Source: Panicum virgatum (Eukaryota; Streptophyta; Magnoliopsida; Poales; Poaceae). Taken from it: a stretch of 64,000 nucleotides of DNA. Positions 7,558 through 54,979 of this stretch are shown here, in pieces. The first letter of the stretch is position 1. Each line of letters begins with the position of its first letter. The DNA is taken from assembly GCF_016808335.1 (NCBI RefSeq), contig NC_053146.1, positions 27,877,495 to 27,941,494 on the forward strand, written 5' to 3'. The notes beneath the pieces were generated by a model. It was not told the DNA's origin and made no database searches. It saw only the letters and a list, made by a program, of their open reading frames with translations. A program made the translations under genes and the position numbers.

Positions 7558-8855
7558 ATACCTGTACAGGGTTTGTATGGATGGATTATTGAGGAGATGT
7601 GCCCCTACAATAGAAGGGGTATAGATCATAGAGAAATGCCATATTGCAGCATATGGAGGCCACTTTGGAGCTTTAGAGAACACAAGCAAAATTTTGGCAA
7701 AGTGGTTTCTTCTGGCCCACAATGTATGAAGACACCAGAGAATTTATTCGAAGGTGCCGAAGATGCCAGTTGCAGGGAGACATCACTGCTCGCAATGCAA
7801 TGCCCCTCACATACAATCTCCAAGTTGAACTGTTCGATGTCTGGGGTATTGACTTCATGGGGCCATTCCTAAAGTCCCATGATTGTGAGTACATCCTGGT
7901 TGATGTGGACTACGTCTCCAAATGGGTGGAGGCATTACCCTGTCGAGCTGCAGATGCCAAGCATGCGAGGAAGATGTTTCATGAAATCATCTTCCCTCGT
8001 TTTGGAACACCAAGGATGGTTATAAGTGACGGGGGGTCCCATTTCGTTGACAAGACCTTCCGCCGCTTCATAAAAGAACTCGGCGCAAGACACAACATCG
8101 CTACATCCTACCACCCTCAGACCAGTGGACAGGCAGAAACTTCTAACAAGCAAATCAAGAGTATTCTGCAGAAAATGGTGAACGAGATGGGTAAAGGATG
8201 GAAGAATATGCTACCTGATGCACTTTGGGCATATAGAACAGCATATAAGACCTCCATCGGCATGTCACCATATCAACTGGTCTACGGGAAGACGTGTCAT
8301 CTCCTAGTTGAGCTTGAGCACAGGGCCCACTGGGCCATTAAGAAATGGGATATGGACTACAAACTCGCTGGGAGGAATAGACAAATGCAGCTGGCAGAGC
8401 TAGAGGAATGGAGAGAGAAGGCGTACCATAGTGCCAAGATATACAAGGACCGTACCAAAAGATGGCATGATAAGAGGATCAAGACCAAGGAGTTCAAGCT
8501 AGGTGACAAGGTATTAATGTTTAATTCCAGGATAAAACTCTTTGGAGAAGGAAAACTTCACAGCAAATGGAAGGGCCCGTACACTGTCGTCAACACATCT
8601 TCTCATGGGGCAATCACACTACAGGATAATGACGGTGAGTACTTCAAGGTAAATGGCCATCGGCTTAAACTTTTCCATGAACCCTTTCAGCCCGGTGAAG
8701 TTTTCGATGAAATTAAGTTAGTAGATTTCAATTCTACACATCTTCTCCATAGAAATAAAGCCCATGCACCCCCTGATCACCTAGCCCATGACCTTAGAAG
8801 CCCACACAAAGAAATTGAGGCCCAGTTGAGCCCAGAGGGGGGCGGCCGAACCTAG
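7558..8855 (+). pseudogene. Integrase of E1 (C-terminal part of pol)
   Basis: Integrase inserts element cDNA into the genome. From the methionine at 7722 the frame is open for 377 residues. The zinc-finger cysteines appear at CRRC; the catalytic triad is D44 (GIDFMGPF), D103 (ISDGGSHF) and E139 (SGQAETSN), with the canonical 35 residues between the last two. A GPY-like C-terminal module follows ([10 protein letters not shown]). The upstream zinc-finger half (RRCAPTIEG, then GGHFGA) is readable at 7585-7680 but is broken by a TAG near 7624 and a one-base shift near 7676; the methionine at 7722 is therefore internal and not a real start. Reverse transcriptase and RNase H are absent because element A is inserted immediately upstream. 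The family is clear; the copy is dead as a polyprotein. Confidence 0.9.
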
Positions 8856-11492: not shown

Positions 11493-12744
11493 TGTTGACG
11501 GTCCTTAAGGTTCGTTTTCGACCGTCAACTCTTGCAGTTTTTTACCGGAAAATAATCACCAAACGTAGATATAGGGCTTACAACTAACCATTTCCACGAG
11601 TTTTGGTGAATTGTCATTTGCAAGCACCCACATCTGTAAAAGAGGAAAAACACAAGTGAACACGAGGAAAAATGCACAAAAGATCCACACTGGAACGTGT
11701 CACTTACAAGGAGGGCCCATATGTCAGAGCAAACGGGGGAACCAAGGCAAATGCACCACGGGATCTTGACATGGGCCCACAGATCAGACTCCCCAATGAA
11801 GATAAGGATGAGAGGCGACCAGGTGGGACCGGCTGACCCCCTGGGGGGTCAGCCGAACATGGCCGGCCTCCCATCTAGGTGCACTTCGACGTGGCGTGCC
11901 CCTACTCCTCCTGATCACCTTCGATATATGCTTTTGGCGGGAACTGACCCTGAAGACTTTAAAAGGGGGCTCCCTCCACCTCTCTCACACACACACCATT
12001 TCATAGGTGAAGGAGAAGAGTAGAGAGGCTCCACCTCTTTGTATCATTAGCCTAGGGAGTGTGTGAGGAAGGAGTGCGGAGAAGAGCCGGACTTGTCGGC
12101 GTCTCTTCAGCTTTGTACCTCTACAGATACGGTACAGTTGGAGTACATATCCGGGTTCTTCTATTCGGTGAGTTCTAGTAAAGTTATTCTTTTGTTCTCA
12201 TTCGTTCGTGGGTTCATCGTCCGTTCTCGTAGTGGATACTCTATAAGAGGTCCCCTGATGAAGACGGGATAACCCTGCGCAACTCTAGAGTAGTAGTCGA
12301 AGGCATAGGCGTGGTGTCTAGGCCTTAGATTACCTTTGTTTGTCTCGTGCTCAGCTGGTATTGTGGGGTAGACGGCAGGTGGTGATAGCCCTGTCCGTCC
12401 GCTACAGAGACAGTCTGCATGGTTAGTGCACTCCCCCCCCCCCCCCCGCCTGGGTACGACATAGAGCGATATTGGAGGTCCCTGGCAGACCAGGGTCAGA
12501 CCAGTGCTTGAAGTGAGCGGGTGAAAACATTAGTGTTTCTTCCCTTGAACCCATCTTTAGATCAGAACCACACTACCCTAAGGTCTCTCTATCTCTTATC
12601 TTCTTCGGGGTAATCTAGTTAGAAGATAGTTACACACCCATTCCTCGGGGAAAATACGATACCCTGAATACTCCCGATTGAAGTGCTACAATGGTATTTT
12701 TGTGTGCTTGCGGATTTCTCTGTAAGAGTTAAGAAATACCAACA
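11493..12744 (+). repeat. 3' LTR of E1 (1252 bp)
   Basis: It starts TGTTGACGG and ends AAATACCAACA. The first 37 bases form a perfect 10-bp hairpin (GTTGACGGTC at 11494-11503 with GACCGTCAAC at 11520-11529). A GC palindrome (GGCTGACCCC at 11831-11840 with GGGGTCAGCC at 11845-11854) lies about 105 bp upstream of a TTTAAAAG box (11958-11965). A run of C bases occurs near 12430-12447. The boundary with satellite at 12744/12745 is sharp. Confidence 0.88.
11826..11965 (+). promoter_or_regulatory. E1 LTR core promoter: paired GGTCGGC-type motif and TATA-like box
   Basis: Two near-copies of a GGTCGGC(C/T)GA(A/C)C motif face each other at 11826-11858, with the TATA-like TTTAAAAG at 11958-11965. The same layout is found in the LTRs of E2, E3, G1 and H1. 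Confidence 0.55.
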
Positions 12745-12810
12745 AACGACTGCACCCGATGCACCCCATAGCACCCTAAACTTATGTTCTGGTGTGTTTC
12801 ATAGTGCTTG

Positions 12811-12984
12811 GGTGCATTTGGGAATGTTTCGTTATGGCAGTAAACTCGGTGCAGGATGGGCTGAAGTGGTGCAATTAATGCAAAATTCGTGCCATGAAGT
12901 CACATCAGAATTTCTCGCAACGAGCTCACCCAATCCACACCATAGGACCTTAAACTCATGTTTTCATGTGTTTCATAGTGTTTA
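12811..12984 (+). repeat. Hybrid satellite monomer (type C front, type A back)
   Basis: The first half (GAATGTTTCGTTA, then GAAGTCACATC) matches type C monomers at 13160 and 14034. The second half (CGCAACGAG, then CCACACCATAGG) matches type A monomers at 13684 and 14557. It is preceded by a type B half and followed by a type B monomer, so it marks an unequal-exchange junction within the array. Confidence 0.75.
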
Positions 12985-13858
12985 GGTGCATTTGGGATTG
13001 TTTTGTTACGAAAGTAAACTCAGTGCAAAATGGGCTGAACTGGTGCAATTAATGCAAAAGTTCATGCCACGAAGTTGCTTCGTAATTTCTCAGAACGACT
13101 GCAGCCGATCCACCCCATAGCACCCTAAACTTATGTTTTGGTGTGTTTTATAGTGCTTGGGTGCATTTGGAAATGTTTCGTTACAGCAGTAAACTCGGTG
13201 CAAAACGGGCTGAAGTGGTGCAATTAATGCAAAAGTTCGTGCCATGAAGTCACATCGGAATTTTCGCAACAAATGCACTCGATCCACCCCATTGAATCCT
13301 AAACTCATATTTTGGTGCGTTCCTTAGTGCTTGGGTGCATTTGGAACCATTTCGTTACTGCATAAAACTCGGTGCAAAACGGGCTGAAGTGGTGCAACTA
13401 TTGCAAAAGTTCGTGCCGCGAAGTCGCATTAGAATTCTTTGCAACGAATGCACTCGATCCACCCCATTGGACCCAAAACTCATATTTTGTTGTGTTTCGT
13501 AGTGTTTGGGTGCATTTGGGACCGTTCCGTTTCTTTATGATACTCTATTCAAAACAGGCCGAACTGTTGCAATTGATGCAAAAGTTTGTGCCACAAAGTC
13601 GCATTAGAATTTTCTGCAACAAATCCACCTGATCCAAACCATCTGACCCTAAACTCATGTTTTGGTGCATTTTGTGGTGTCTGGGTGGATCTGGGATCAT
13701 TTCATTACTGCACGAAACTCGGTGCAAAATGAGCTGAACTGGTGCAATTAATGCAAAAATTCGTGCCACGAAGTCGCTTTAGAATTTCTCGCAACGAGCG
13801 CACCCAATCCACACCATAGGACCACAAGCTCATGTTTTGGTGTCTTTCACAGTGTTTG
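12985..13858 (+). repeat. Higher-order repeat unit 1 (B-C-D-E-A)
   Basis: Five monomers starting at 12985 (B), 13160 (C), 13334 (D), 13509 (E) and 13684 (A). Diagnostic words: B 'gattgttttgttacg', C 'aagtcacatcgg', D 'gcaactattgcaaaag', E 'gtttctttatgatactc', A 'gggatcatt' with 'gagcgcaccc'. Confidence 0.85.
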
Positions 13859-14730
13859 GGTGCATCTGGGATTGTTTTGTTACGAAAGTAAACTTAGTGC
13901 AAAACGGGCTGAACTAGTGCAAGTAATGCAAAAGATCGTGCCACAAAGTCGCTTCGTAATTTCACGGAACGACTGCACCCAATCCACCCCATACGACCTT
14001 AAACTCATGTTTTGGAGTGTTTCATGGTGCTCGGGTGGATTTGGGAATGTTTTGTTGCGGTAGTATACTCGGTGCAAAATGGGCTGAAGAGGTGCAATTA
14101 ATGCAAAAGTTCGTGCCATGAAGTCACATCGGAATTTTTCGCAACAAATGCACTTGATCCACCCCATTGAATCCTAAACTCATGTTTTGGTGCATTTCTT
14201 AGCGCTTGGGTGCATTTGGGACCATTTCGTTACCGCATAAAACTCGGTGCTAAATGGGCTGAAGTGGTGCAACTATTGCAAAAGTTCGTGCCACGAAGTC
14301 GCATCTGAATTTTTGCAACGAATGCACTCGATCCATCCCATTGGACCCAAAGCTCATGTTTTGTTGCCTTTCGTAGTGTTTGGGTGCATTTGGGACTGTT
14401 CCGTTTCTTTATGATACTCGGTTCAAAACAGGCTGAACTGTTGCAATTAATGCAAAAGTTTGTGCCACAAAGTCGCATTAGAATTTTTTACAACAAATCC
14501 ACCCAATCCAGACCATCTAACCCTAAACTCATTTTTGGTGTGTTTCGTGGTGTCTGGGTGGGTTTGGGATCATTTTGTTACTGCACCAGACCCGGTGCAA
14601 AATGGGCTGAACTAGTGCAATTAATGCAAAAGTTCGTGCCACGAAGTTCTTCAAAATTTCAGGCAACGAGCACACCCAATCCACACCATAGGATCATAAA
14701 CTCATGTTTTGGTGTGTTTCGTAGTGTTTG
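13859..14730 (+). repeat. Higher-order repeat unit 2 (B-C-D-E-A)
   Basis: Monomers at 13859 (B), 14034 (C), 14209 (D), 14383 (E) and 14557 (A), 872 bp in all. Each matches its counterpart in unit 1 much better than it matches its neighbours, including the D-specific 'gcaactattgcaaaag' and E-specific 'tttctttatgatactcgg'. Confidence 0.85.
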
Positions 14731-15350
14731 GGTGCATTTGGGATTGTTTTGTTATGGAAGTAAATTCAGTGCAAAACGGGCTGAACTGGTGCAATTAATG
14801 CAAAAGTTCGTGCCACGAAGTTGTTTCGTAATTTCTCGGAAAGACTGCACCCGATCCACCCAATAGGACCCTAAAATCATGTTTTGGAGCGTTTCATAGT
14901 GCTAGGGTGGATTTGGGAATGTTTCGTTGCGATAGTATACTCGGTGCAAAACTGGCTGAAGAGGTGCAATTAATGCAAAAGTTCAAGTCATGAAGTCACA
15001 TCGTAAATTTTCGCGACAAATGCACCCGATCCACCCCATTGAATCCTAAACTCATGTTTTGGTGCGTTTCTTAGTGCTTGGATGCATTTGGGACCATTTC
15101 GTTACTGCATGAAACTCGGTGCAAAACAGGCTGAAGTGGTGCAACTATTGCAAAAGTTCGTGGCACGAAGTCGCATCGGAATTTTTTTGCAACAAATGCA
15201 CTCGATCCACCCCATTGGACCCAAAACTCATGTTTTGTTGCGTTTCGTAGTGTTTGGGTGCATTTGGGACCATTTTGTTTCTTTATGATACTCGGTTTGA
15301 AACAGTCCGAACTGGTGCAATTAATGCAAACGTTTGTGCCACAAAGTCGC
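14731..15350 (+). repeat. Higher-order repeat unit 3, truncated (B-C-D-E part)
   Basis: Monomers at 14731 (B), 14906 (C), 15081 (D) and a partial E at 15257. Type E breaks off after 'cacaaagtcgc' at 15350, where the E2 LTR begins. Confidence 0.85.
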
Positions 15351-15683
15351 TGTTGACGGTGCTTAAGTGCCATTTTCACCCGTCAACTATACTCAGTAAT
15401 AAAGGAAAACCACATGCCTTACTCACATATTTGTATCACTAACCTCGCTCCATAGTTGTTTTTGAGTTTTGTACATTTCAGATGAGCAGGGGCGGAATAA
15501 GATGAAAACACACAGCAGACGCCATATAACTACGCAGAATATTGCATCCGGCATCACACCCTTACAAAGAGGGCCCACATGTTAGAGGAAACGGGGCCTC
15601 CACGCAAGATGCACTAGAGGATAAGGATAAGATCCAACGAATCAACCACTCAGCGAAGGATCAGGCCAAGGGGCTGCCAGGTG

Positions 15684-15821
15684 GGGTCGGCCAACCCCCT
15701 GGGTCGGCCGAACCTGGCTTGGTTCCCGTCCAGGTGCAATTCGAGGAGGAGTAGCTGCCAAGGCACCTGATCACCTTCCATATGTGCGTTGGCAGGAAAC
15801 CAACCTCTAGAGCTATAAATA
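15684..15821 (+). promoter_or_regulatory. E2 LTR core promoter: paired GGTCGGCC motif and TATA box
   Basis: GGTCGGCCAACC and GGTCGGCCGAACC lie at about 15685-15714, and TATAAATA at 15814-15821, roughly 100 bp downstream. A GGGCCCAC motif (TCP-factor type) is at about 15570. Confidence 0.6.
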
Positions 15822-15836
15822 GGGCCTCTCTCCACC

Positions 15837-18800
15837 TGTAACACCTGGTTTACAAAAGAACATAAACCGAGCAATCATATACGTGACAGGATCAAGAACA
15901 TAAACCAAGCGTAGAACAAGTACGAAACTCTCTCTAAAGCTGGGCGCCACAGGGACGTTGACTGGGAGACAACCGCGTAGAAGTCCTCGTACTCCTGGTA
16001 GCTCCGGGTGAACTCCTCTGCATCACCGGGAACTAAGCAGCAGTAGGGTATCCCCAAGGAGAACAAGAGGAAAAGAGTAGAATAGGCAAGAGTATCTGGG
16101 CCGCTCATGACCATGAGCACGGCTAGTATACCAGTTTTACGCTCTGCAGAGGTTGCACATCTTTACCCACAAGTCATGAGCTACGCTAGTTGTTCATCAC
16201 ACTTCCTTAGGTGAGATGGCTAGCAAGCACACTACGAGGCCGTTACAAAGAATCTCGTTGGTAAGGCGTAACCGCGAAGAGTTAGATCAACGACGATAGG
16301 GCCCACCTCACGGTGGTACAAGCACACAGCACAGACCAAGCCAGAGGAGCAGGGACCATAGAAGCTTACCACCCTTGCCCCGTAGGTAAGTTACTCCAAA
16401 CCAAAAAGACCAAATTAGTAAACCAAGACTGTACCATTCCAATCTTGTGGTAGTGCTGTTGTCCCATGTTGTCGCTCTATGAACCGGTCCTTATGGAGAG
16501 TGGCCAACCAAGCACTAAGCACCGTGCTGGCCCCCTAAACCATGTTTCTAGAAAAACCAATTTTAGCGAGACGTGAGCCACTCAAGCACGGAGCACAGAG
16601 GGCCACTCCCATATTTAAGTTGCAATATACCATTAATCAAATTAATTAAAAATGACCATTATGTGTGAGAGCGCAGCAACCTAGCACAACTAACCAAAAT
16701 GCAAACCCAAGGGATATTTATAAGGTAATAAAGTGGCTAGGAAATCCTTATAGGCATACAATATTAAAATGCAGTATGAAAATGTATTTAAAAGTGATAG
16801 GTGTTGTTCATGTTATACTTGCCTTCCACAAAGTTCTCCTGCTGCTCAAACTGCTGTGAAGACGGTGGCTGCTTTGGGTACTGGTACTCTTCTGAAGGAT
16901 CAACATCTACTCATGATCTCAACGCCAAACAAAGGCAAACACTAAGAAACAGTACAACAAAATTAAGCTAGAACTGTTCTACGCGTTACAGCACATACAC
17001 ATACATGCAAACAAAGGCAAACACTAAGAAACAATACAACAATACATAAAAACAGCAAACGAAACTAAGCTAGAACTGTTCTACGCATTACAACGATCAC
17101 GTGGACATAAAGAACACCTAAAATGGAGCTAGAACGTGAAATCTAGAGCTAAAACAAGGTCCAGGGGCTAAACTGTGAAAAAACTGAAAGTTCTAGGGGT
17201 TCTGTGCAAAAACCGAGGACCTAAATGTAATTAAACCTTAGTTCTAAGGTCTAGCGCATAAAAACTCAGGGTCTCAGTGCTAAAAACTGGGCCTGGTTGG
17301 AATTAAATTTGAACTAACTGGACCGCGGGTTGATTCCAGAGAAACCCGGGGTCTCTTTAGCAAAATCTACGGGCGCTGACCGTTACGCAGGCGGGTCAAA
17401 CAGATCTGGGCCGTTAGATTACGATCGGGCGGGTCAGGACGATTGGGAGGGCGAACGGTGGCGACGTTGTCGCCGGTGACTCTGTCCGCGGTGGCGCAGC
17501 GCCGGGCTCGCCGGAGTTCGTCGAATTCGACGCTCCGGGGGCTAAATCGACCAACGCTTGGGTCAGGGGCGTTCATCACGCCATGCGTGATCCACCTAAA
17601 CACTCAGTTGGGCTCGAGGATGCCCTGGGACGTAGGTGCGATGGCGGTGGCAGCTCTGTACGGCGGGGCATCGCCGGCGCGTGTGCGAACGCACAGCTCT
17701 GGGCTCAACAACGTGTGCAAAAGGATGTGCGTGCGTGCTCAGTGCACAGGCAAGGCAAAACGGTGCTCGCGTGGGGTCAGGGCGCACTGCAGGAGATCTG
17801 TCATGGCGGAGATGCGGCGGCGAAACGCCGGCGTCGCCGTTCCGGCCTCGGTTGGGACCTATGGGCCATTACATCTAGCGCAACAGGTTCAGGAGTGGGT
17901 GCTAGTGCTTACCAAGGGTGCAGGTCGGACTGAAGGGCCGTGCAGGGTCGACGGCGACGTTGACCGGTGGCGGGGTCGGCGCTGTGCTCGTGGTCCGGGT
18001 GCTGGGGTGGTCCTCCGGGCTCCTGGGCGCCACGATCCGACACGTGGGGCTCCTACGAAGTTAGAGCGGGGGTCAGCGCAGGCTGAACTGCACCGGCGGC
18101 GAGGAATCGCGGCGGCGCAGAGATCTCACCGTCGAACGGTCCAGGCGCAATTTCGGCGAGGCAGGGACTGGGCTCCGGGCAAAGAGCTTGAGGAGCTCCC
18201 TGGGGCCACGGCGAGGCTCCTGCGAGGGTTGGCACGAGCTAAAGGGCAGCGGAGCGGTGAGGGCACGGCGGCGGGTCGCTTTGCTCCGAGCAGAGGCAAG
18301 GCGGGGCGGCTGCGGCTAGGGTTTGGCGGAGGGTAGTGGAGTTTGGGAAGGTCCAGGGGTGCGGGCTGCGGTTAAGAATGGCAGGGCCTGGGATCTCGGC
18401 GTGCGGGCTTGGGGGAGATCACAGCGAGAATCACGGCCGGTGATTCGGGAGGCCGTTGCGCGAGGTAGACGGGGAAACTGACGAGCGGGCCCGGCGTGGC
18501 AACGACACAGAGCGGGCGCGCGCGGGATGCGGCTGCGGGGGGAAAGGGCGCCGACATGTGGGGGCCACATGGCAGCGGGGCTAACGTGCGCGCGGGCGAA
18601 CGGGTGAGCGGAGCCGGGCTGAGTGCGCGAGCGACGTGGGGAGTATCTGGGCTGTGGGCGTTGGCTTGCCGGGCCACGCGGGGAAAGAGAGCTGGGCCAT
18701 GGTTTGGGCTGCTGGGTTGGGTTTCTGGTTTTCTTCTCCTATTTCTCTTCCAAACAACACTCAACTAATTTGAATTCAAATTCAAATTTGAATTCAAACC

Positions 18801-18989
18801 CTATGCACTCCACCAAAATAAAACCATGCACTAGCATGAATGCACAACCATGTTTAAACCTAGAAAAATTTTAATTCCTTGTGAAACAAAATTAGATTAA
18901 ATGCAAGACTAATCATAATAAATCCTAGAAAATTAAATAAAGCTAATTAAATTTATTATTAAAGCTGAAATTTAAATTGGAGTGTTACA
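15837..18989 (-). repeat. F2: solo Tekay-type LTR (3153 bp)
   Basis: On the minus strand it runs from TGTAACACTCCAATTT (18989) to CCAGGTGTTACA (15837) and matches the F1 LTRs over its length. It is flanked by perfect 5-bp duplications CCACC (15832-15836 and 18990-18994), proving insertion into the E2 LTR followed by LTR-LTR recombination that removed the internal region. The GC-rich block at 17350-18700 gives long frames on both strands but is LTR sequence, not a gene. Confidence 0.92.
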
Positions 18990-20049
18990 CCACCCCCCTC
19001 AACACACACACACTTCATTCCATTCTCTCCAAGAAGGCTCTCCTCTCTCTTGCTCTCTTAGCTAGGTAGTAGAGCTAGGCTAGTTCCCTTTAGCGAGCAA
19101 GTCGTCCTCGGGGTCATTGAGCAATCCTCAGCTCCTGGTATGGCTTTGTATCCAACTTGTCAGACTTCTATTCATAATATAGAGTTCTGCCATGGTTGCT
19201 TTACTATCTTGATAGTTTATCAATCCATGCTGCTTAGATCGTTCATAAGTTATGCTACGGTCTTGGTTAGGCCAGATGATCCGGGTACGGATAGAGGTTC
19301 GTTGTGCTTTTGAGCTTGCTCTAGCGTTTTACTCGTCCATCCGAAGGGTGGGAGACCTGGGGCACTAGAGTAGTGACTTCATACACGAGTGTGGTGCTCG
19401 GGTATGCGGGATCCTTCGGATATGACCATGCTCCACGGTGTGACTGGGGTAGACGGGAGGTGGTGACAGCCCTGTCCGTCCGGCGTAATAGTGGTGTTGC
19501 GTTTAGCGTACTCCCCAACATTTGGGTTCGGTATAGAAGTTCATGCAAAGAGGTAACAGGACTGGATGTACTCCGGTGCGGGAGCTTCTCCCCGCTATCC
19601 CATTTTCCTAGCACCTGCAGTCCTAACCATGATCTAACATGACCCCAGTTTTGGATAGAAGCACTAGGACACCTAACCTAGCCTAAGCTCCAGCTGACTT
19701 GACGTAGGATAGAGTAGTTCTTTATTTTACAGTTTCTCTCCTTTATTCCTTCCTCTTGGAGTGTGGATGTGTGTTGTGTCACATTACCCTTGCTTATTCT
19801 TTATCTGTACTTACCCTTGTTAGAGTATTGCCTATTGCTTGAGGCACAATGTCATGGTTAATATTGAGTACAATACCTTTGCCACTGCCGTCCTTTGGGA
19901 CACAAATAAATGACGATACCCTTACTCTCCGGGTGAAATGCTACAATGGTATATCCGTGCACTTGTAGATCCATCTGTAATCGTATTGATTATACCACGA
20001 GAGTGGCACCCCTTGGGTGCAGTTGCTAGGATGGGTTCGGCGCCCTCAT

Positions 20050-20170
20050 TTCTAGTGATTGCACTAAGGACTACCAACAGGCATTTCTGGCGCTATTGCT
20101 AAGGATTAACCATTCCTAGTGATTGCGCTAAGAAATGTCAACAAGCATTTCTGGCGCCGTTGCCGGGGGA
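20050..20170 (+). promoter_or_regulatory. Duplicated LTR end and primer-binding site of E2
   Basis: The intact primer site TGGCGCCGTTGCCGGGGGA (20152-20170) fits the 3' end of plant Asp-tRNA, a common primer of Athila-group elements. About 64 bp upstream is a second, degraded copy of the same junction: LTR end CTACCAACA (to 20079), then CATTTC and TGGCGCTATTGC. Confidence 0.75.
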
Positions 20171-21322: not shown

Positions 21323-23848
21323 TGTAACACCCTAATTTAAATTCCAGCATTTAATAATAAATTTAATTGGCTTTATTTGTTTTTCTAGGATTTAATTTGC
21401 TTAGTTTGCATTTAATCCAATTTTGTTCATCATGTAATTAAAATTTTATCATAGGTTAAACTTTGTTGTTGCATTCATGCTGGAGCATATTTTCTTTTGT
21501 TGTTTGGTTAGAGTTTGAATTCAAATTTATTTGAATTCTTTTAGCCGTGGAACCCCTGCTCCGCCGCCTCTCTCCTGCACCTGCACGCACCCTGGTCTGC
21601 ACGCCGTGGTCTGGAACGCTCGAGCGCCCTTTCCCCTCCTTTCCTTTCCCTTGTTTCGCGCTTAATGTCTCACCGGAGTAGCTATGCCCCGCTCTGCCGC
21701 CGCCGGCCGCTCCACTGCGCTGCACCCCTGTGCCGAACCCATAGTAGTGTTTGCGAGGCTGCGCACACCACTTCGGATCCAAAACCAAGTCGAATAGGGC
21801 CCTGGGTTGCCGATTTGCCGAACTCCGGCGACTCTGCCGCAGAGCGCCGCCGCGTGCCACCGTTGGCGCCGCCGCCCGCGCGCCCAAATGCTCTGGGCCG
21901 CCCGATTTAGATCCAACAATCCCAAATCAAGTCAGCCAAGTCAAACAGATAGGATACCGGTCAGCGCCTTCAGTTTTACATATGAGCCCCTCCTTTTCCT
22001 TGTAATCAACCCGCAGTCCACAGATGTTCAAAAATATTTACAGATCGGCCCATATATTTACACGGACCCCCTGAGTTTCTTTAAAATAAAACCCGCCATC
22101 CAGCCTGGTAGATTTTGCATGTTAACCCCTAGATCTAAAGTTTAATTACGTTTTAGTCCTCGGTTTTGCCCAGAAACCCCCTGGAACTCTAGTTTTCTTA
22201 CAAATAGGTCCCTGGAACTTGTTTTTGGCCTAGATTTTGCGTTTTAGCTCCGTTTAGGCGTTCTTTATGTCCACGCGATCGTTGTAGTGCGTAGAATAGT
22301 TCTAGCTTAGTTTTGTTTGCTGTTTTTACATATTGTTGTACTGTTTCTTAGTGTTAGCCTTTGTTTGCATGTATGTTTATGTTGTGTATTGTTTTTGGCC
22401 ATGTGTTCGTGAGTAGACGTTGATCCATCTGAGGAGCCCCAGTACCAGTACCAGGAGCCATCTTCAGAGCAGTTTGAGCAGCAGGATCAGTTTGAGGAAG
22501 GCAAGTATAACATGAACAACCTATCACTTTAAATACATTTTCATACTGCATTTTAATACTGTATACCTATAAGGACTTTCCTAGCCACTTTATATCCTTT
22601 ATATATATCCTTTGGGTTGCATTTTGGTTAGTTGTGCTAGGTGCCGCGCTATAACACACTTGGTCCTTTTTAATTAATTTGATTAATTGTTTATGGAACT
22701 TAATTCTGGGAGTGGCCCTCTGTGCTTCGTGCTTGGGTGGCTCACGTCTCGTTAAAATATGTTTTGTTAGAAACTTGGTTTAGGGGGCCAGCACGGTGCT
22801 TAGTGCTTGGTTGGCCACTCTCCATAAGGACCGGTTCATAGAGCGACAACCTGGGACAATAGCGCTACCACAAGACTGGAATGGGACGGTCTTGGCGTAA
22901 TAATTAGGTCTTTTTGGTTTGGAGTAACTTACCTGCGGGGCAGGGGAGGTAAGCTTCTATGGCCCTCGTGCTGAGTGGCCTCGTCTGTGCTTCGTGTCTT
23001 GACGCCCACTAGACCTGCTCCATAGTCGCTAATCCACCCTCGCGGTTACTCCTTACCAACGAGATTTTTTGTAAAGGCCTCGTAGTGAGTTTGCTAGTCA
23101 TCTCACCTAAGGAAGTGTGATGAACAACTAGCGTATCTCATGACTTGTGGGTAAAGATGTACAACCTCTGCAGAGTGTAAAACTGGTATACTAGCTGTGC
23201 TCACGGTCATGAGCGGCCCAGATTCTCCTTTTGATTAGTGGGGTTATCTTCCTTTGACAAGGCAGGTTTCCCCGGGTGGCTTGGTTTGGTTTGGGTCTCA
23301 GTAGTAACATGATTAATTTTGATTAATTACTATGTAACTGGGTTTATGGTAATTCATCCACTTGTAGTAAATAGCTTTAATAAAATTTTGCCAGGATTAA
23401 AAGCTAATGCAGTTGAGTCAGCCAACCTTAGAGCCTCATAGTCTGTGTTATACTTGTTTAGTACAAGTTGTGTACTCACTCTTGCCTACTCTACTCTTTT
23501 TCCTCTTGGGGATACTCTACTGCTGCTCAGTTGGCTGCCGACGCGAGGGAGTTCGCTCAGCGCTACCAAGACTACGAGGACTTCTAGGCATTCGTCTCCC
23601 AGTCGACGTCCCTGTGGCGCCCTGCTCAGCTTCCAACGAGAGTTATCATTTATGTATTACACTTCCGCATACTCTGTATCAGACATTTTGTCATTAATGT
23701 AATAAACAACATTCGTACTCGCTTTATTATATCTTTTTATGTGATATGTGCTGTGATATACTGTTCATTCTGTTGTATATACGTGTGACTTGATCCTGGC
23801 ACGTATATGATTGCTCGGTTTATGTCCTTTTATAAACCGGGTGTTACA
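21323..23848 (+). repeat. 5' LTR of F1 (2526 bp, internally deleted)
   Basis: It starts TGTAACACCC and ends GGGTGTTACA. Compared with the 3' LTR it lacks the segment corresponding to about 28987-29862, joined at 'ttttagc/cgtggaac' near 21545. It is otherwise collinear with the 3' LTR. Confidence 0.93.
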
Positions 23849-23851
23849 GAG

Positions 23852-23864
23852 TGGTATCAGAGCC
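23852..23864 (+). promoter_or_regulatory. Primer-binding site of F1
   Basis: TGGTATCAGAGCC lies three bases after the LTR end and is complementary to the 3' end of initiator methionine tRNA, the usual primer of Tekay elements. About 550 bp of non-coding leader (23865-24418) follows before gag. Confidence 0.92.
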
Positions 23865-24418
23865 ATATCGACTGTAGGACGAAAGCCTAGATAGAACTGG
23901 TCGAGTTTTAAGTCTTCTTCTCTCTCAGCCTTGTCTGCTGAAACTATTTTGCTATTATATTCCTTGAAATTCCAAGATTCTTACTCGTCTTGCCTTGAAT
24001 TCTCTCTATAGAATAGTTTCTGTAGATTTTGGCCTGAAATAAGTCGACTGACCATCATAGGTATAAGCTAAATGACCTCTTTATAATAATATGATAGTAC
24101 GTTATGCGACGCGATGTGTTAGTCGAGTCGTATGTTAAACTCGGCTAAGTTGTGAAATTTGTATGCTTGTTATTATGCCACATGTTTGATTTGGATTTTT
24201 GGTTGATTGCATAGTTTAGTAGTTAAATTTGTTTAATGAAAATCATTTTAAGTTAAAGTTAACTAATTAATAAAACAAGTTAGATCGTTGGGGGTAAAAC
24301 CGTCCACTCTATCCTGTCTACTTTATCATGTCTAAGTCTTTCTTGCAGAAAAATATTGTATCCATCTGAATTTATTTCTCCAATATCCATACTCATGAAA
24401 TCTTTTGTCCAAAATCAG

Positions 24419-25352
24419 ATGGTGAACACCAGGCGTGGTTCTCACCAGCAGGGGCAGAACAACCGGGGTACTGGGATCCCGATGCCTCCGCCTCTAACTC
24501 CGGAGCAGTATTTCCAGCTCCAGATGCAGATGATGGCTACCCTGAACAACACTATTCAAGCACTTCAGCAGGCTCACACTCAGCCTCCGCCTCCTCCACC
24601 GCCGCAGACCCGTGACAGGCGTGCTGAGTTCCTGAGGGGTCACCCACCGATGTTCTCTCACACGTCCGACCCTCTTCAGGCTGACGACTGGCTCCGTGTA
24701 GTGGAGCGCCAGCTGGACATCGCCCAGTGCGATGATCGGGAGCGAGTCTTGTACGCAGCAGAACAGCTGCGAGGGGGACTATGATAGTCACGGAGTATCG
24801 TGATCGTTTGTGCAGCTTGCTCGCTACGCCCCTACCGAGGTATCAGATGACCGCAAGAAGCAGGAGCACTTCATGGAGGGTCTTGAGGACTACCTCCAGT
24901 ATGCGCTGCTGAACCTCCGCTTCGACGACTTCAACCATCTGGTTGACAGCGCGCTCAACACGGAGCGCAAGCACCTGGAGATGGAGGACAAGAAGAGGAA
25001 GGTCGTTCCCGTTGCTTCCGACAGCAACACCCGTCCTCGCCTCCAGCCGCCTCAGCAGTACCAGCAGCAGCAGTACCGGCCTCCCCAGCAGTACCAGCAG
25101 AGGCCGCAGCAGTACCCGCCTCGACAGCAGTAGCAGGCAGGTTAGGGCCCAAGGTTACTGGCACCTCCGGCTCGTACTGCTCCACCAGCTCCGCCAGCAC
25201 CGCATGCTCCACGGCAGGCAGCTCCTCCTGCCGGATAGCAGGCTCAGGGACCCCCTCGCACCTGCTATCACTGCGGCCAGCCGGGGCACTACACCAACTC
25301 TTGCCCCCGGAAGGCACAGGCGGGACAGCAGGGGCGCCCAGCTCAGCCCAGG
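24419..25352 (+). pseudogene. gag of F1, internally deleted
   Basis: The start MVNTRRGSHQQGQ at 24419 is preferred over the earlier methionine at 24356 because MVNTRRG is a usual gag start in this clade. A proline-rich stretch and a capsid start follow (LRGHPPMFSHTSDPLQADDW). At about 24780 the sequence jumps from EQLRGGL to VTEYRDR, so roughly 100 residues of the capsid domain are missing and reading shifts frame. The part QLARYAPTEVSDDRKKQEHF continues at 24816-25133, then TAG codons interrupt the QYQQ-rich linker. The zinc knuckle [14 protein letters not shown] is intact at about 25264-25306. Confidence 0.85.
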
Positions 25353-28300
25353 GTGCCAGCACAGGGTCGGGTGAACCACGTGATGGCCGAATCAGCGGCC
25401 GAGGCTCCTAACGTTGTTATTGGTACGTTCATGGTCAACTCTCACCCCACTACAGTGCTTTTCGATACCGGTGCTACTCATTCTTTCATTTCCAAGTCAT
25501 TTGCCGAGCAGCATCGTATACCAGTTTCTTGTATGAGAATAGCTATGGTAGTTACCTCACCTGGGGGCCAGATACATACATGTTCTATATGCTCCAGAGT
25601 TAGTATGGTCATAAATGGGGTAGAATTCTACACTGGTTTGATCGTCATTGATTCCTCGGGGATAGATGTGATTTTGGGCATGGAGACCCTTACCAGATGG
25701 GGAGTCCGTATTGATTGTGCTCAGCGGACAGTTCACTTGTCAGCATCTGATGGCCAAGAGGTGACAGTCAGTGCTTCAGAGCCCTCGGGATTTCTTCATC
25801 AGATGGAGGCTAGACCCACGGATGGTATTCGCGTGGTGTCTGAATTCCTGGATGTCTTTCCGGATGATTTGCAAGGTATGCCGCCTGAACGCGACATCGA
25901 GTTTTCTATTGGTCTCTTGCCTGGCACTGTTCCTATTGCAAAGCGGCCCTACCGCATGGCACCTATAGAGCATGAGGAAGTCAAGAAGACTATTGATGAG
26001 TTGCTAGCCAAGGGCTATATCCGTCGCAGCTTCTCTCCTTGGGCTTTTCCATTGTTGCTAGTAGATAAGAAGGATGGCTCGAAGAGAATGTGTGTTGATT
26101 ATCGGGAGCTGAATGCAGTTACCATCAAGAACAAGCATCCACTGCCCCGTATTGAGGATCTCTTTGATCTGCTTCGAGGTGCTCGCATATTCTCGAAGAT
26201 TGATCTGCGTTCGGGTTATTTTTAGTTGAGGATCCGTCCTGGGGATATTCCAAAGACGACATTCACCTGCAAGTACGGGCTGTATGAGTACACGGTCATA
26301 TCCTTCGGCTTGACTAATGCCCCGGCTTTCTTCATGCACTTGATGAACATGGTTTTCATGGATTATCTGGATGTTTTCGTGGTAATCTTCATTGATGATA
26401 TTCTGATCTTCTCCAAGACAGAGGAAGGGCATGAAGAGCATCTGAGGCTCGTGTTGCAGAGATTGAGGGAGCATCAGCTGTATGCTAAGTTCAGCAAGTG
26501 CGAGTTCTGGATTGACGAGGTTCCATTCCTCGGTCATATCATCTCCAAGGGAGGTATTGCAGTTGATCCGAGCAAGGTGAAGGATGTGCTCGAGTGGGAG
26601 ACACCGCAGTCGGTGAAGGAAGTCTGGTCATTCTTGGGCTTAGCAGGATATTATTGGAGGTTCATTGAGAATTTCTCCAAGATCGCGAAGCCTTTGACTT
26701 CTTTGCTAGAGAAGAATGCGGCATTCATATTGACAGATGAGCGTCAGATGGCCTTTGATGAGTTGAAGAAGAGGCTTACTACGGCGCCAGTCCTTACTCT
26801 GCCAGACCAGAGCAAGAGGTTCACGGTGTATTGTGATGCTTCAAAGGATGGTCTTGGCTGTGTTCTGATGCAGGAGGGTAGAGTGATTGCTTATGCTTCA
26901 CGGCAGTTACGTCGGCATGAGCTGAACTATCCCACTCATGATCTTGAGCTAGCCGCAGTTGTGCATGCTCTGAAGATTTGGAGACATTACTTGTATGGGC
27001 AGCAGTGTGATATCTACACTGATCACAAGAGCCTCAATTATATTTTCATGCAGAATGAGCTGAATATGCGGCAGAGGAGATGGTTAGAACTAGTCAAGGA
27101 CTATGACCTGGAGATTCACTATCATCCGAGTAAGGCCAATGTTGTGGTAGACGCTCTGAGCAGAAGAAGCTATGTCAACATGGCCGTTGCTTTCCAGATG
27201 CCTCAGGAGTTATGTGAGGAGTTTGAGCAGTTGAGTCTGGGTTTCTTGCATCATACTTCTAGTGCGACATTCGAGGCAGTACCCACTCTAGAGGCAGAGA
27301 TCAGGCAGCATCAGAAGGAAGATGAGAAGCTGCAGGAGATTCGTGAATTGCTCAAGAAAGGCAAGGGTCCTCATTTCAGAGAGGATGATCAGGGTACCTT
27401 GTGGTACAAGAACCGGATCTGTGTGCCAGATGTGAAGGATCTCCGGAAGCTGATTCTGAGTGAGGCTCATGATACAGCTTATTCTATTCATCCGGGCAGC
27501 ACGAAGATGTATTATGATCTCAAGGAATGTTTCTGGTGGTATGGGATGAAGCGTTCAGTGGCAGAGTACGTGGCTATTTGTGACACCTGTCAGCGTGTCA
27601 AGGCTGAGCATCAGAGGCCAGCAGGTCTGTTACAGCCTTTGAAGATTCTAGAGTGGAAATGGGAGGAAATCACTATAGACTTCATTGTTGGATTGCCTTG
27701 TACTCAGAAAGGGTACAACTCTATATGGGTAGTAGTGGATCATCTGACGAAGGTTGCTCACTTCATTCCAGTGAACACTACTTACTCCGGTGCTAGACTT
27801 GCAGAGTTGTACATCTCTCGGATTATCTGTTTGCATGGTGTGCCCAAGAAGATCATATCAGATAGAGGGTCTCAGTTCACTTCACGATTCTGGGAGCAGC
27901 TCCATGATTCATTGGATACGAAGCTGCTTTTCAGTATGGCTTATCACCCTCAGACAGATGGGCAGACAGAGAGAACCAACCAAGTGTTGGAAGATATGCT
28001 GAGAGATTGTGCCATTCAGTACGGTACTAGTTGGGATAAGTGCCTGTCATATGCTGAGTTTTCATACAACAACAGCTATCAGGCCAATCTGAAGAAGTCC
28101 CCCTTCGAGGCATTATATGGCAGAAAGTGCAGGACTCCACTCTATTGGGATCAGATTGGTGAGAAGCAGCTCTTTGGCCCTGACATTATAGAAGATGGAG
28201 AGCAGATGGTACAAGCTGTGTGGGAGAATCTGAGGATTGAACAGAGTAGGCAAAAGAGCTATGCAGATGACAAACGAAGAGACCTGACTTTCAGTGTTGG

Positions 28301-28727
28301 TGATCATGTATACCTGAAGGTGTCTCCGATGTGAGGAATCCGCAGATTTAACGTCAAGGGGAAGTTAGCACCTCGGTATGTGGGCCTATACAAGGTGCTA
28401 GAGAGGAAAGGCGAAGTTGCATATCGCCTGGAGTTGCCTACCAGCCTCTCATGAGTTCATGATGTCTTCCATATTTCTCAGCTGAAGAAGTGTCTGCGAG
28501 TACCTGAGGAGCAGGCAACACTGGATGGGTTAGATGTGCAGGAGGATTTGACTTATACTGAGCATCTGGTGAAGATTCTGGAGACATCAGAGAGGGTTAC
28601 ACGGAACAAGCGCATCAAGATGTGTAGAGTTTAGTGGAGTCATCACAGTGAGGCTAAGGCTACATGGGAGCGAGAAGATGAGCTGAAGAAGACATATCCA
28701 GATCTCTTTGCTAGCCAGCCCAGCTAA
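25353..28727 (+). pseudogene. pol of F1: protease, RT, RNase H, integrase, chromodomain
   Basis: Protease: [12 protein letters not shown] (D at residue 38 counted from 25353). Reverse transcriptase: DLRSGY at the end of the first open segment, and FIDDIL (residues 55-60 counted from 26226). RNase H: D204, E241, D266, D309 in CDASKDG, ELAAVV, YTDHKSL and VVDALSRR. Integrase: H415, H422, C452, C455 zinc finger; D485, D546, E582 with 35 residues between the last two. A chromodomain ends the protein (KMCRV, stop, then WSHHSEAKATWE). All catalytic residues survive. Four in-frame stops break it: TAG 26223, TGA 28332, TGA 28452, TAG 28632; no frameshift is seen after 25353. The natural end is TAA at 28725-28727. 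The chromodomain would direct integration to heterochromatin. Confidence 0.95.
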
Positions 28728-28744
28728 ATCTCGGGGACGAGATT

Positions 28745-28763
28745 TCTTTAAGGGGGTAGGGTC
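28745..28763 (+). promoter_or_regulatory. Polypurine tract of F1
   Basis: A tract reading TTTAAGGGGGTAGGGTC immediately precedes the 3' LTR. The same AAGGGGGTAGGG core precedes the F3 LTR on the minus strand. Confidence 0.85.
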
Positions 28764-31700
28764 TGTAACACCCTAATTTAAATTCCAGCTTTTAATAATA
28801 AATTTAATTGGCTTTATTTGTTTTTCTAGGATTTAATTTGCTTAGTTTGCATTTAATCCAATTTTTTTCCTCATGTAATTAAAATTTTATCATAGGTTAA
28901 ACTTTGTTGTTGCATTCATTCTGGAGCATATTTTCTTTTGTTGTTTGGTTAGAGTTTGAATTCAAATTTATTTGAATTCTTTTAGCTTGAGTTTGAATTA
29001 GAATTAGAAAGAGAGAAATAGAAAGAAAAACCAAAACAAGAAACCCAGCCCTTCCCCGCGCGGCCCAACCCGCGCTAGGCCAGCAGCCACCCCGCTCCCC
29101 CTCTTTTCCCCGGCCCAGCTTACCTGTTGCCGCGGCCCAGCCTTCTCAGCCCGCGAAGCGCAAGGCCCAGCTCGCGCAGCCTCCCGGCCCAGCTCGCCGC
29201 ACCCGCTCGCTCACCCCGTTTCGGCCCAGCAGGACCCCACGCTCGCCCGTCTCCCCGCGGAACGCGTCCCCGCCAGCGCACGCGTCCCCCTCCTTTCTCT
29301 GACCCCGTGACCCCACTAGTCAGCCCTCTCCCTCCTTTCCTTTCTTCCTCCCCGAGCTCCGCTGCCCGCTGAATCGCAGCGCCGCGCGACCCGCTGCCCC
29401 ATGGACCGTCCGACCTCCGCGGGCCCACCATCCAGCCGTCCAGTGCTCGCCCCGCCTTCTAGAAGCTACGCGCCGAGCCCCGGGATCACGCAGCGCCGTT
29501 AGCGCGATCCGTTTTCCCCACAGAGCAGCACCGGCCGTGTTTCCCGCAGCCCGTACGCCGAGGATCACGCCCGCCGCCTTTTTAACGCGCCCCACACCTC
29601 CCTGAACCTTATCCCCACCCCAATTTTTCCCCAAACCCTAGCCCAACGCCGCCCCGCCGTTGGAGCTCTGCCCGGACGCCCCACGGTGAGCTCCTCGACG
29701 AAGCTCCACGCCGTCAACCCTGTGCCGGCCATCCTGATCCACTTGGTCATTTCACAAGACGACCCCATGTCGCTGCCACCGGAGCAGACGCTCAAGGAGC
29801 CGTCCACGCGGCCTCTCCCCGTGCGCCACCGATCTGCCAAGCTAGGAACTGCCGCGACGCCGCTGTGGAACCCCTGCTCTGCCGCCTCTCTCCTGCACCT
29901 GCACTCACCTTGGTCTGCACGCCGTGGTATGGAACGCTCCAGCGCCCTTTCCCCACCGTTTCTTTCCCTTGTTTCGCGCTTAATGTCTCACCGGAGTAGC
30001 TATGCCCCGCTCTGCCGCCGCCGGCTGCTCCACTGCGCTGCACCCCTATGCCGAACCCGTAGTAGTGTTTGCGAGGCTGCGCGCACCACTCCGGATCCAA
30101 AACCAAGTCGAATAGGGCCCTGGGTTGCCGATTTGGCGAACTCCAGCGACTCTGCCGCAGAGCGCCGCCGCGCGCGACCGTTGGCGCTGCCGCCCGCGCG
30201 CCCAAACGCTCTGGGCCGCCCGATTTAGAACCAACAATCCCAAATCAAGTCAGCCAAGTCAAACATATAGGATACCGGTCAGCACCATCAGTTTTGCATA
30301 TGAGCCCCTCCTTTTCCTTGTAATCAACCCGTAGTCCACAGATGTTCAAAAATATTTACAGATCGGCCCATATATTTACACGAACGCCCCTGAGTTTCTT
30401 TAAAATAAAACCCGCCATCCAGTCTGGTAGATTTTGCATGTTAACCACTGGATCTAAAATTTAATTATGTTTTAGTCCTCGGTTTTGCCCAGAAACCGCC
30501 TGGAACTCCAGTTTTCTTACAAATAGGTCCCTGGAACTTGTTTTTGGCCTATATTTTGCGTTTTAGCTCCGTTTTTGGCGTTCTTTATGTCCACGCGATC
30601 GTTGTAGCGCGTAGAATAGTTCTAGCTTAGTTTTGTTTGCTGTTTTTACATATTGTTGTACTGTTTCTTAGTGTTAGCCTTTGTTTGCATGTATGTTTAT
30701 GTTGTGTATTGTTTTTGGCCATGTGTTCGTGAGTAGACGTTGATCCATCTGAGGAGCCCCAGTACCAATACCAGGAGCCATCTTCAGAGCAGTTTGAGCA
30801 GCAGGATCAGTTTGAGGAAGGCAAGTATAACATGAACAACCAATCACTTTAAATACATTTTCATACTGCAGTTTAATACTGTATGCCTATAAGGACTTTC
30901 ATAGCCACTTTATATCCTTTATATATATCCTTTGGGTTGCATTTTGGTTAGTTGTGCTAGGTGCCGTGCTATAACACACTTGGTCCTTTTTAATTAATTT
31001 GATTAATGGTTTATGCAACTTAATTCTGGGAGTGGCCCTCTGTGCTTCGTGCTTGGGTGGCTCACGCCTCGTTAAAATATGTTTTGTTAGAAATTTGGTT
31101 TAGGGGGCCAGCACGGTGCTTAGTGCTTGGTTGGCCACTCTCCATAAGGACCGGTTCATAGAGCGACAACCTGGGACAACAGCGCTACCACAAGACTGGA
31201 ATGGGATGGTCTTGTCATAATAATTAGGTCTTTTTGGTTTGGAGTAACTTACCTGCGGGGCAGGGGCGGTAAACTTCTATGGCCCTCGTGCTGAGTGGCC
31301 TCGTCTGTGCTTCGTGTCTTGACGCCCACTAGACCTGCTCCATAGTCGCCGATCCACCCTCGCAGTTACTCCTTACCAACGAGATTCTTTGTAAAGGCCT
31401 CGTAGTGAGTTTGCTAGTCATCTCACCTAAGGAAGTGTGATGAACAACTAGCGTATCTCACGACTTGTGGGTAAAGATGTGCAACCTCTGCAGAGTGTAA
31501 AACTGGTATACTAGCCGTGCTCATGGTCATGAGCAGCCAGATCCTCCTTTTGATTAGTGGGGTTATCTTCCTTTGACGAGGCAAGTTTCCCCGGGTGGCT
31601 TGGTTTGGTTTGGGTCTCAGTAGTAACATGATTAATTTTGATTAATTACTATGTAACTGGGTTTATGGTAATTCATCCACTTGTAGTAAATAGCTTTAAT

Positions 31701-32166
31701 AAAATTTTGCCAAGATTAAAAGCTAATGTAGTTGAGTCAGCCAACCTTAGAGCCTCATAGTCTGTGTTATACTTGTTGAGTACAAGTTGTGTACTCACTC
31801 TTGCCTACTCTACTCTTTTTGCTCTTGGGGATACTCTACTGCTGCTCAGTTCCCGCCAACGCGAGGTAATTCGCTCAGCGCTACCAGGACTACGAGGACT
31901 TCTAGGCGTTCGTCTCCCAGTCGACGTCCCTATGGCGCCCTGCTCAGCTTCCGACGAGAGTTATCGTTTATGTATTACGCTTCCGCATACTCTGTATCAG
32001 ACATTTTGTCATTAATGTAATAAATAACATTCGTACTCGCTTTATTATATCTTTTTACGTGATATGTGCTGTGATATACTGTTCATTCTGTTGTATATAC
32101 GTGTGACTTGATCCTGGCACATATATGATTGCTCGGTTTATGTCCTTTTATAAATCGGGTGTTACA
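28764..32166 (+). repeat. 3' LTR of F1 (3403 bp, full length)
   Basis: It starts TGTAACACCC at 28764 and ends GGGTGTTACA at 32166. It includes the 877-bp GC-rich block missing from the 5' LTR (about 28987-29862), which contains a TTTTTAA box near 29579 and probably the promoter. GC-driven frames here are not genes. Confidence 0.93.
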
Positions 32167-52699: not shown

Positions 52700-53609
52700 T
52701 GTTGACGGCTGTTAAGTGCAAAATTTATGTCGTCAACTCCTGCATAAAAACATAAAGAATGAACATCAACAGTAGTAGTAGGAGTTATTACTAACAAATT
52801 TCACGAGTGTTGGTGAATTATTGATTGCAGGGACACAAGTCGGAAATAAGATGAAAACACAAAGAATATGCAGGAGAAAACCACAAAAGATTGCATCCTG
52901 CGTTACACTTAGAAGAAGGGCCCATTTGACAGAGAAAACCGACGTACAAAGCCCCGGCACCGACATACACAAGATGGGGCCCCACCAGGCAGTGTCCAGG
53001 ATGAAAGGCAGCGCGAGAGGTTGTACCCGGGGGTCGGTCGAACCCCGGGGTCGCCCGACACCTTGTTGGCGCCAACCGGCCCAATCTTTGGCGGGAAGAT
53101 CGTCCTGATCCACTCCAAGGCGGTGCACTATGTTTCCATATTTGTTAAGGGTGGGAACCAACCTATTAGCACTATATAAAGGGCCTCCCTCCCCCCCCCT
53201 CTCACACACACCACCAAGATGTAGACTTGTGCTCCATTCCAAAGGCAAAGTGCTGCTTAGGCTAGTGCTTAGAGTAGGAGGAGGGTGAGGAGTAGTTCGG
53301 GGAAGCGCCGGGCCGATCGGCGGTCTTCTCCGGTCTTGTACCTCTATAGATGCTGGCTTCCTCTGGTATGAGTAAGTTAGTATTTATGATTCTTGTATTG
53401 CATAGTACTTTTGCTTGAGAGAGATCAGTTCTCTTACTCACGGGTTCATCGCTCTGTATTTATACAGAGTATCATAGTTTGCTACGGGGATCCAGACATA
53501 GTTAGACTATGGTAGTTATCAGTAGCATAGATATGGTGTCTGGGCTACCGGTTACCTTCGTTTGCCTTATATCCCACGGTCTGTGAGGTAGGCCGCTGGT
53601 GGTGACAGC
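52700..53609 (+). repeat. E3: Athila-type LTR, 5' part
   Basis: It starts TGTTGACGGCTGTTAAG at 52700 after GTCAT (52695-52699). Stem GTTGACG (52701-52707) pairs with CGTCAAC (52731-52737). A paired GGTCGGTCGAACC / GGTCGCCCGACACC motif lies at 53029-53062 and TATATAAA at 53173-53180. It is cut at 53609 by G1, in the part that corresponds to about 12390 of E1. Whether a whole element or a solo LTR is present cannot be told. Confidence 0.82.
53029..53180 (+). promoter_or_regulatory. E3 LTR core promoter
   Basis: Paired GGTCGG-type motif at 53029-53062 and TATA box TATATAAA at 53173-53180, about 110 bp apart; same layout as in E1, E2, G1 and H1. Confidence 0.6.
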
Positions 53610-54961: not shown

Positions 54962-54979
54962 ACTCCCCCACACTTAGCC
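54962..54979 (-). promoter_or_regulatory. Polypurine tract of G1
   Basis: The minus strand reads GGCTAAGTGTGGGGGAGT directly before the LTR start; the core AAGTGTGGGGG is the same as in E1. Confidence 0.82.

Follow-up and report, generated by a model that had tools for sequence, protein, structure and literature searches.

The window, a 64-kb stretch of switchgrass chromosome C11, contains a tandem satellite array enclosed on both sides by LTR retrotransposon sequence (Table 1). TRF reports one array with a period of 175 and 14.9 copies at 12745–15351; we set its right edge at 15350 because an LTR begins at 15351. The array was cut into 15 monomers, the last of them truncated, which were aligned with MAFFT. 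The monomers fill 12745–15350, and the length of 174–176 bp given in the preliminary description of this DNA is upheld. No further satellite was found elsewhere in the 64-kb window at E 1e-3.

Table 1. Satellite array, higher-order repeat (HOR) units and flanking retrotransposon features, in window coordinates
Feature	Position	Strand	Evidence or remark
Integrase ORF	7677–8855	+	Pfam rve, Integrase_H2C2
3′ LTR of the array-splitting retrotransposon	11493–12744	+	LTR ends TGTTGACGG and CCAACA; purine-rich stretch just upstream
Target-site duplication (TSD) AACGA, right copy	12745–12749	+	Left copy precedes the 5′ LTR at C11:27,805,747
Satellite array, 15 monomers of ~175 bp (last truncated)	12745–15350	+	TRF; monomer matrix and permutation; blind clustering and bootstrap
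Monomer 1, type C	12745–12918	+	Monomer 2 out of order after it; in register with the 27.80 Mb array
HOR unit 1 (B 12919, C 13094, D 13268, E 13443, A 13618)	12919–13792	+	
HOR unit 2 (B 13793, C 13968, D 14143, E 14317, A 14491)	13793–14664	+	
HOR unit 3, incomplete (B 14665, C 14840, D 15015, E 15191)	14665–15350	+	E cut short by the right-hand LTR
5′ LTR of a second, related retrotransposon cutting the right edge of the array	15351–20145	+	Nested LTR inside
LTR of a related family, solo in the window, nested in the right-hand 5′ LTR	15837–18989	−	TSD CCACC

The integrase ORF probably belongs to the left-hand retrotransposon, judging from its place and strand. Among the 120 matches listed for a retroelement protein of the window, the best is a metagenome protein (83% over 98%), and the best-ranked named match is from Paspalum notatum (71%). 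The right-hand LTR is related to the left-hand one, with 71% over 282 bp. Its end, at about 20079 or at 20145, is uncertain because the LTR end is duplicated. Within 20047–20163, the LTR end and the stretch behind it occur twice in tandem, about 64 bp apart; this 5′ LTR is followed by a primer-binding-like stretch. A further LTR element at 21323–32166 is nested in the right-hand retrotransposon, carries pol-type ORFs at 25239–28334 and is flanked on both sides by the TSD ACAAC; in its main LTR block, 84 differences were counted over 2,303 aligned bases (JC 0.037). More pieces related to the flanking LTR family lie on both strands at 52,700–58,450.

We compared the 175-bp consensus of the satellite with a maize CentC consensus that reads the same as the one printed in PMC5480163. 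The two show a collinear, full-length local alignment on the minus strand with a score of 90, whereas none of 1000 dinucleotide shuffles scored above 62, which upholds the earlier description of a centromere-type grass satellite. It is the whole monomer that is significant; the 27-nt published CentC oligo alone scores 18 against the consensus, below the 99% shuffle value of 23. The consensus exceeds the 156 bp of CentC by a net 19 bp, and the extra bases are spread over several gaps. For switchgrass, Melters et al. 2013 (PMC4053949) describe the variants B1 (175 bp) and B2 (166 bp) and a 20-bp insertion. Since the 19 additional bases come close to this insertion, the consensus fits the published switchgrass satellite, and the monomers have the length of B1, being 174–176 bp and about 20 bp beyond CentC. 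Judged from its sequence, the satellite is a CentC-family, switchgrass-type centromeric satellite. An exact CENP-B box is absent from the array, where the best plus-strand match, at a single site, has 8 of the 9 core bases and the best on the minus strand has 7 of 9. Satellite words gave no matches in viral contigs or in bacterial and archaeal genomes, and a search of literature text with a satellite word returned five papers, none of them related by title.

The monomers are arranged in a five-monomer order. In the MAFFT matrix of the 15 monomers, the mean identity is 79.1, 77.0, 76.9, 78.0, 88.5 and 79.3% for lags 1–6, respectively, and 86.9% for lag 10; the lag-5 mean was reached by none of 100,000 permutations of the monomer order. 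Ungapped 100-nt segments gave 83.6 at lag 5 and 82.1 at lag 10, compared with 71.9–77.6 at the other ten lags tried. Clustering into five groups, blind to position, reads C-B-C-D-E-A-B-C-D-E-A-B-C-D-E, and the neighbor-joining bootstrap for each type, out of 500, is 492 for A, 499 for B, 482 for C, 488 for D and 500 for E. The five-monomer HOR proposed in the preliminary description is therefore real: identity peaks at lag 5, well above lag 1 and the 77–79% of lags 1–4, rather than showing no such peak. The words that it gave as diagnostic of types D and E each occur three times in the window, at D and E positions only, with spacings of 874–875 and 872–874 bp, respectively. The HOR units are 872–877 bp long, corresponding to five whole monomers with no truncated member. 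Consecutive units are 90.5–90.8% identical (gaps ignored) and, at about 9% divergence, are not near-identical.

The strictness once claimed for this order holds from monomer 2 onward and fails at the left edge. The types repeat in order over monomers 2–15, but a strict pentamer would place an A at monomer 1, which is a C, and nine of the ten lag-5 pairs in the window agree in type. The actual irregularity is the C-to-B step from monomer 1 to monomer 2. Monomer 1 was at first taken for a stray copy at the edge of the array; this reading was dropped, since monomer 1 is in register with the 27.80 Mb array across the insertion described below. A run of A-B-C-B-C-D-E is also present at 27.62 Mb, where the C calls are narrow.

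The 5′ LTR of the left-hand element lies outside the window, starting at C11:27,805,747, and is 84.5 kb before the end of the 3′ LTR; this span is presumably due to other elements inside. The two LTRs, of 1,252 and 1,202 bases, align end to end, and AACGA flanks both. The array at 27.80 Mb ends with type B and the window array begins with type C, so that the register is kept. In addition, the reconstructed empty site matches an intact B–C junction inside the window at 48 of 51 bases. The shared AACGA, the kept register and the empty site thus establish that the window array and the 27.80 Mb array are one array cut by one LTR retrotransposon.

We then compared the divergence of the LTR pair with that of the monomers. 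The LTRs differ by 77 substitutions in 1,201 aligned bases, with a K2P of 0.068 (bootstrap 0.053–0.083). The K2P of same-type monomers is 0.115 (0.096–0.138) in the window, 0.113 (0.097–0.134) in the 27.80 Mb array and 0.118 (0.102–0.133) between them. Since these values are equal within and between the halves, neither half appears to have been homogenised on its own after the split. The same-type values of 0.113–0.118 are larger than the LTR value, and homogenisation had therefore probably stopped by the time of insertion. Assuming equal mutation rates in LTRs and satellite, this suggests that much of the divergence between units predates the insertion; some of the unit divergence may also date from before the last amplification. 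With a clock of 1.3e-8 per site per year, rough dates of about 2.6 million years for the LTR pair and about 4.4 million years for same-type monomers are obtained. The AP13 paper (PMC7886653) places the divergence of the switchgrass subgenomes at less than 4.6 million years.

All 37 matches to unit 1 fall on C11, where they lie at 27.62, 27.80, 27.89 (the window) and 33.08–33.09 Mb; this search scored 5 of 10,194 first-look candidates and is thus uninformative on other chromosomes. Typed against the window monomers, the A-B-C-D-E order recurs in four other C11 arrays, at 27.62, 27.80, 33.08 and 33.09 Mb. Related arrays therefore exist in the same genome, and the objection foreseen at the outset, that there might be none elsewhere, falls away. 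Local variants are present as well. At 27.62 Mb, a seven-monomer form, A-B-C-D-C-D-E, is seen over C11:27,597,000–27,628,000 with steps of 1,223–1,226 bp, and at 33.08 Mb the pentamer is shortened in places, for example to A-C-D-E. Removal of 14 partial monomers from a joint set of 149 left 135; for 133 of these, the closest monomer from a different array shares the type, and blind clustering into five groups agrees with the typing for 134. Same-type identity within arrays is 0.920–0.931 at 33.08–33.09 Mb versus 0.886–0.896 at 27.6–27.9 Mb. The satellite of C11 is patchy, because all 20 of the 10-kb stretches sampled between 26 and 35 Mb are without it; one large satellite block from 27.9 to 33 Mb is unsupported by these samples.

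To describe the distribution of the pentamer over the whole genome, we used two junction signatures: a word of type A and then, one monomer on, a word of type B (A>B), and a word of type E and then one of type A (E>A). All 46 exact A>B junctions and 38 of the 39 exact E>A junctions are on C11, with no matches for either reversed control. The single E>A match outside C11 lies on C15 and differs in the sequence that comes after its E word. These exact signatures are insensitive: in the fetched C11 arrays they matched 12 E>A and 8 A>B junctions, none of them in the window. Since they miss the window's own junctions, the claim is restricted to close copies. Close copies of the pentamer are almost confined to C11, and diverged copies may exist elsewhere. 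The E-type word alone has 1,392 matches genome-wide (reversed control 0) and, among the matches listed, is found on C1 and C2; at C1:24,743,793–24,863,754 many of the listed matches are separated by multiples of about 166 bp, which is also the B2 length. The exact word TTTCTTTATGATACTC was rejected as a genome-wide marker of type E, as it has five matches, three in the window and two scattered, and its reversed control has three. At C11:31,081,875–31,089,900, four A>B junctions are spaced by 2,612, 2,612 and 2,611 bp, or about 15 monomers, which is possibly a HOR of three pentamers.

Exact junction spacing is considered here together with the printed 80-nt heads. At 33.110–33.126 Mb, there are two runs of E>A junctions, each with three exact 877-bp steps, and seven of the nine printed heads are identical. 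At 33,170,024–33,174,409, six A>B junctions are separated by five exact 877-bp steps and all six heads are identical, and other heads between 33.16 and 33.20 Mb vary. Judging only by spacing and 80-nt heads, we regard 33.11–33.20 Mb of C11 as a candidate younger core.

We interpret the window as a pericentromeric fossil fragment of a C11-specific HOR array built of a CentC-family, switchgrass-type satellite, with a probability of about 0.82. First, five already diverged monomers, A-B-C-D-E, would have been copied as a block on C11 by unequal exchange or break-repair amplification; unequal exchange and break-induced replication are the two models of HOR amplification given in PMC8997354. By its exact junctions, the block occurs widely on C11 and almost nowhere else. 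An LTR retrotransposon then entered at AACGA, between B and C monomers, and divided the array, the right end of which was cut by a second, related element. On our reading of the measured divergences, neither half would have undergone homogenisation of its own once the array was split, and the unit divergence would in large part be older. Younger pentamers may have kept amplifying in the core at about 33.11–33.20 Mb, with old copies displaced from the core and homogenisation lost in these copies. The window would then be an outer, dead layer, probably without a kinetochore now. Most likely, the fragment is a dead pericentromeric relic, in which CENH3 enrichment would not be expected. More tentatively, and with odds that we put a little below even, the pentamer may have arisen and spread on one chromosome of this tetraploid at about the time when the subgenomes diverged, or later; its outer parts would have died, the core at 33.11–33.20 Mb would have kept amplifying, and the retrotransposons in the dead parts would serve as clocks.

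The layering by distance would be unreal if the 27.6–27.9 Mb pieces truly adjoined the 33.1 Mb core and had been moved by scaffolding errors or by an inversion. Contig order in this recombination-poor region may be wrong, and the separation of 5 Mb depends on the assembly being correct here; AP13 v5, as published, has a contig N50 of 5.5 Mb (PMC7886653), and the strands differ, being minus at 27.62 and 33.08–33.2 Mb and plus at 27.80–27.89 and 31.07–31.09 Mb. However, a single element flanked by its TSD links the window to the 27.80 Mb array, and the lower same-type identity at 27.6–27.9 Mb than at 33.08–33.09 Mb is independent of scaffolding, which makes such a displacement unlikely, albeit worth weighing. 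It is highly improbable that the window array is part of the active C11 centromere and still binds CENH3, with the retrotransposons as ordinary insertions into a working array. The satellite family is indeed centromeric by FISH in switchgrass, and polymorphic CentC copies of maize are strongly enriched in CENH3 ChIP (PMC5480163). In contrast, about 30 monomers are present here, in two pieces, and the LTR pair that splits them is at a K2P of 0.068, with neither half homogenised alone afterwards; moreover, the sampled 10-kb stretches are empty of satellite, and evenly spaced pentamers with identical 80-nt heads lie elsewhere, at 33.11–33.17 Mb. Finally, the window holds fewer than three whole units, but the chance that the five-monomer period is an accident of a monomeric array is practically nil, as this is ruled out by the permutations (0/100,000) and the blind clustering, and the order recurs in four other arrays with the A>B junction at 46 places on C11.

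The fossil HOR array proposed here has several known counterparts. The preliminary description had drawn its novelty from the view that HORs are rarely described in grasses, and this argument fails, since HORs have been published for the switchgrass 175-bp repeat, maize, Brachypodium (PMC10910784) and Pennisetum. Its view is favoured by PMC5480163, the available text of which reports no evidence of homogenisation within Zea CentC arrays. The switchgrass B1 repeat (Melters et al. 2013; PMC4053949) shares with the window the 175-bp monomer, about 20 bp beyond CentC-like repeats, and multi-monomer HORs. The B1 HORs are 792 bp (four monomers and about half) and 1,131 bp (six monomers and 53 bp), whereas the window unit has five whole monomers; the likeness is one of length and the presence of HORs, and the close copies of the window are almost single-chromosome. 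Maize CentC (156 bp; PMC4806543, PMC5480163) resembles the window in its homologous monomer, local-duplication HORs and retrotransposon interruptions. Its monomer is 19 bp shorter, and the CentC HORs of CEN10 comprise seven duplications dated to 98–498 thousand years (PMC4806543), compared with the approximately 9% divergence of the window units. In Pennisetum purpureum CentP (PMC12933667), as on C11, HORs are chromosome-specific, with more variation away from the core and more diverged blocks distal to it. However, the CentP monomers are 138, 148 and 156 bp (PMC12933667), and CENH3 has been mapped in CentP, whereas C11 is known from sequence alone.

For a five-monomer switchgrass HOR, we found no report by title or abstract in the switchgrass, Panicum and Poaceae centromere literature, of which subscription papers were mostly outside coverage. 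A HOR in a grass is in itself already known, and what is new is a pentamer whose close copies are almost confined to C11, with a retrotransposon-split copy. Human alpha-satellite HORs are likewise tied to one chromosome. They also resemble C11 in having old, diverged copies outside a younger core (PMC8997354), a likeness drawn without sequence comparison; the window differs in the absence of an exact CENP-B box, in its much smaller arrays and in being split by retrotransposons. The order of the pentamer provides a sequence tag for one switchgrass chromosome. The retrotransposon insertion bounds the time when homogenisation stopped, and this offers a way to measure the turnover of plant centromere arrays. 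If the proposed history is true, the layers could be dated one by one to time HOR turnover in a plant, as with human alpha satellite.
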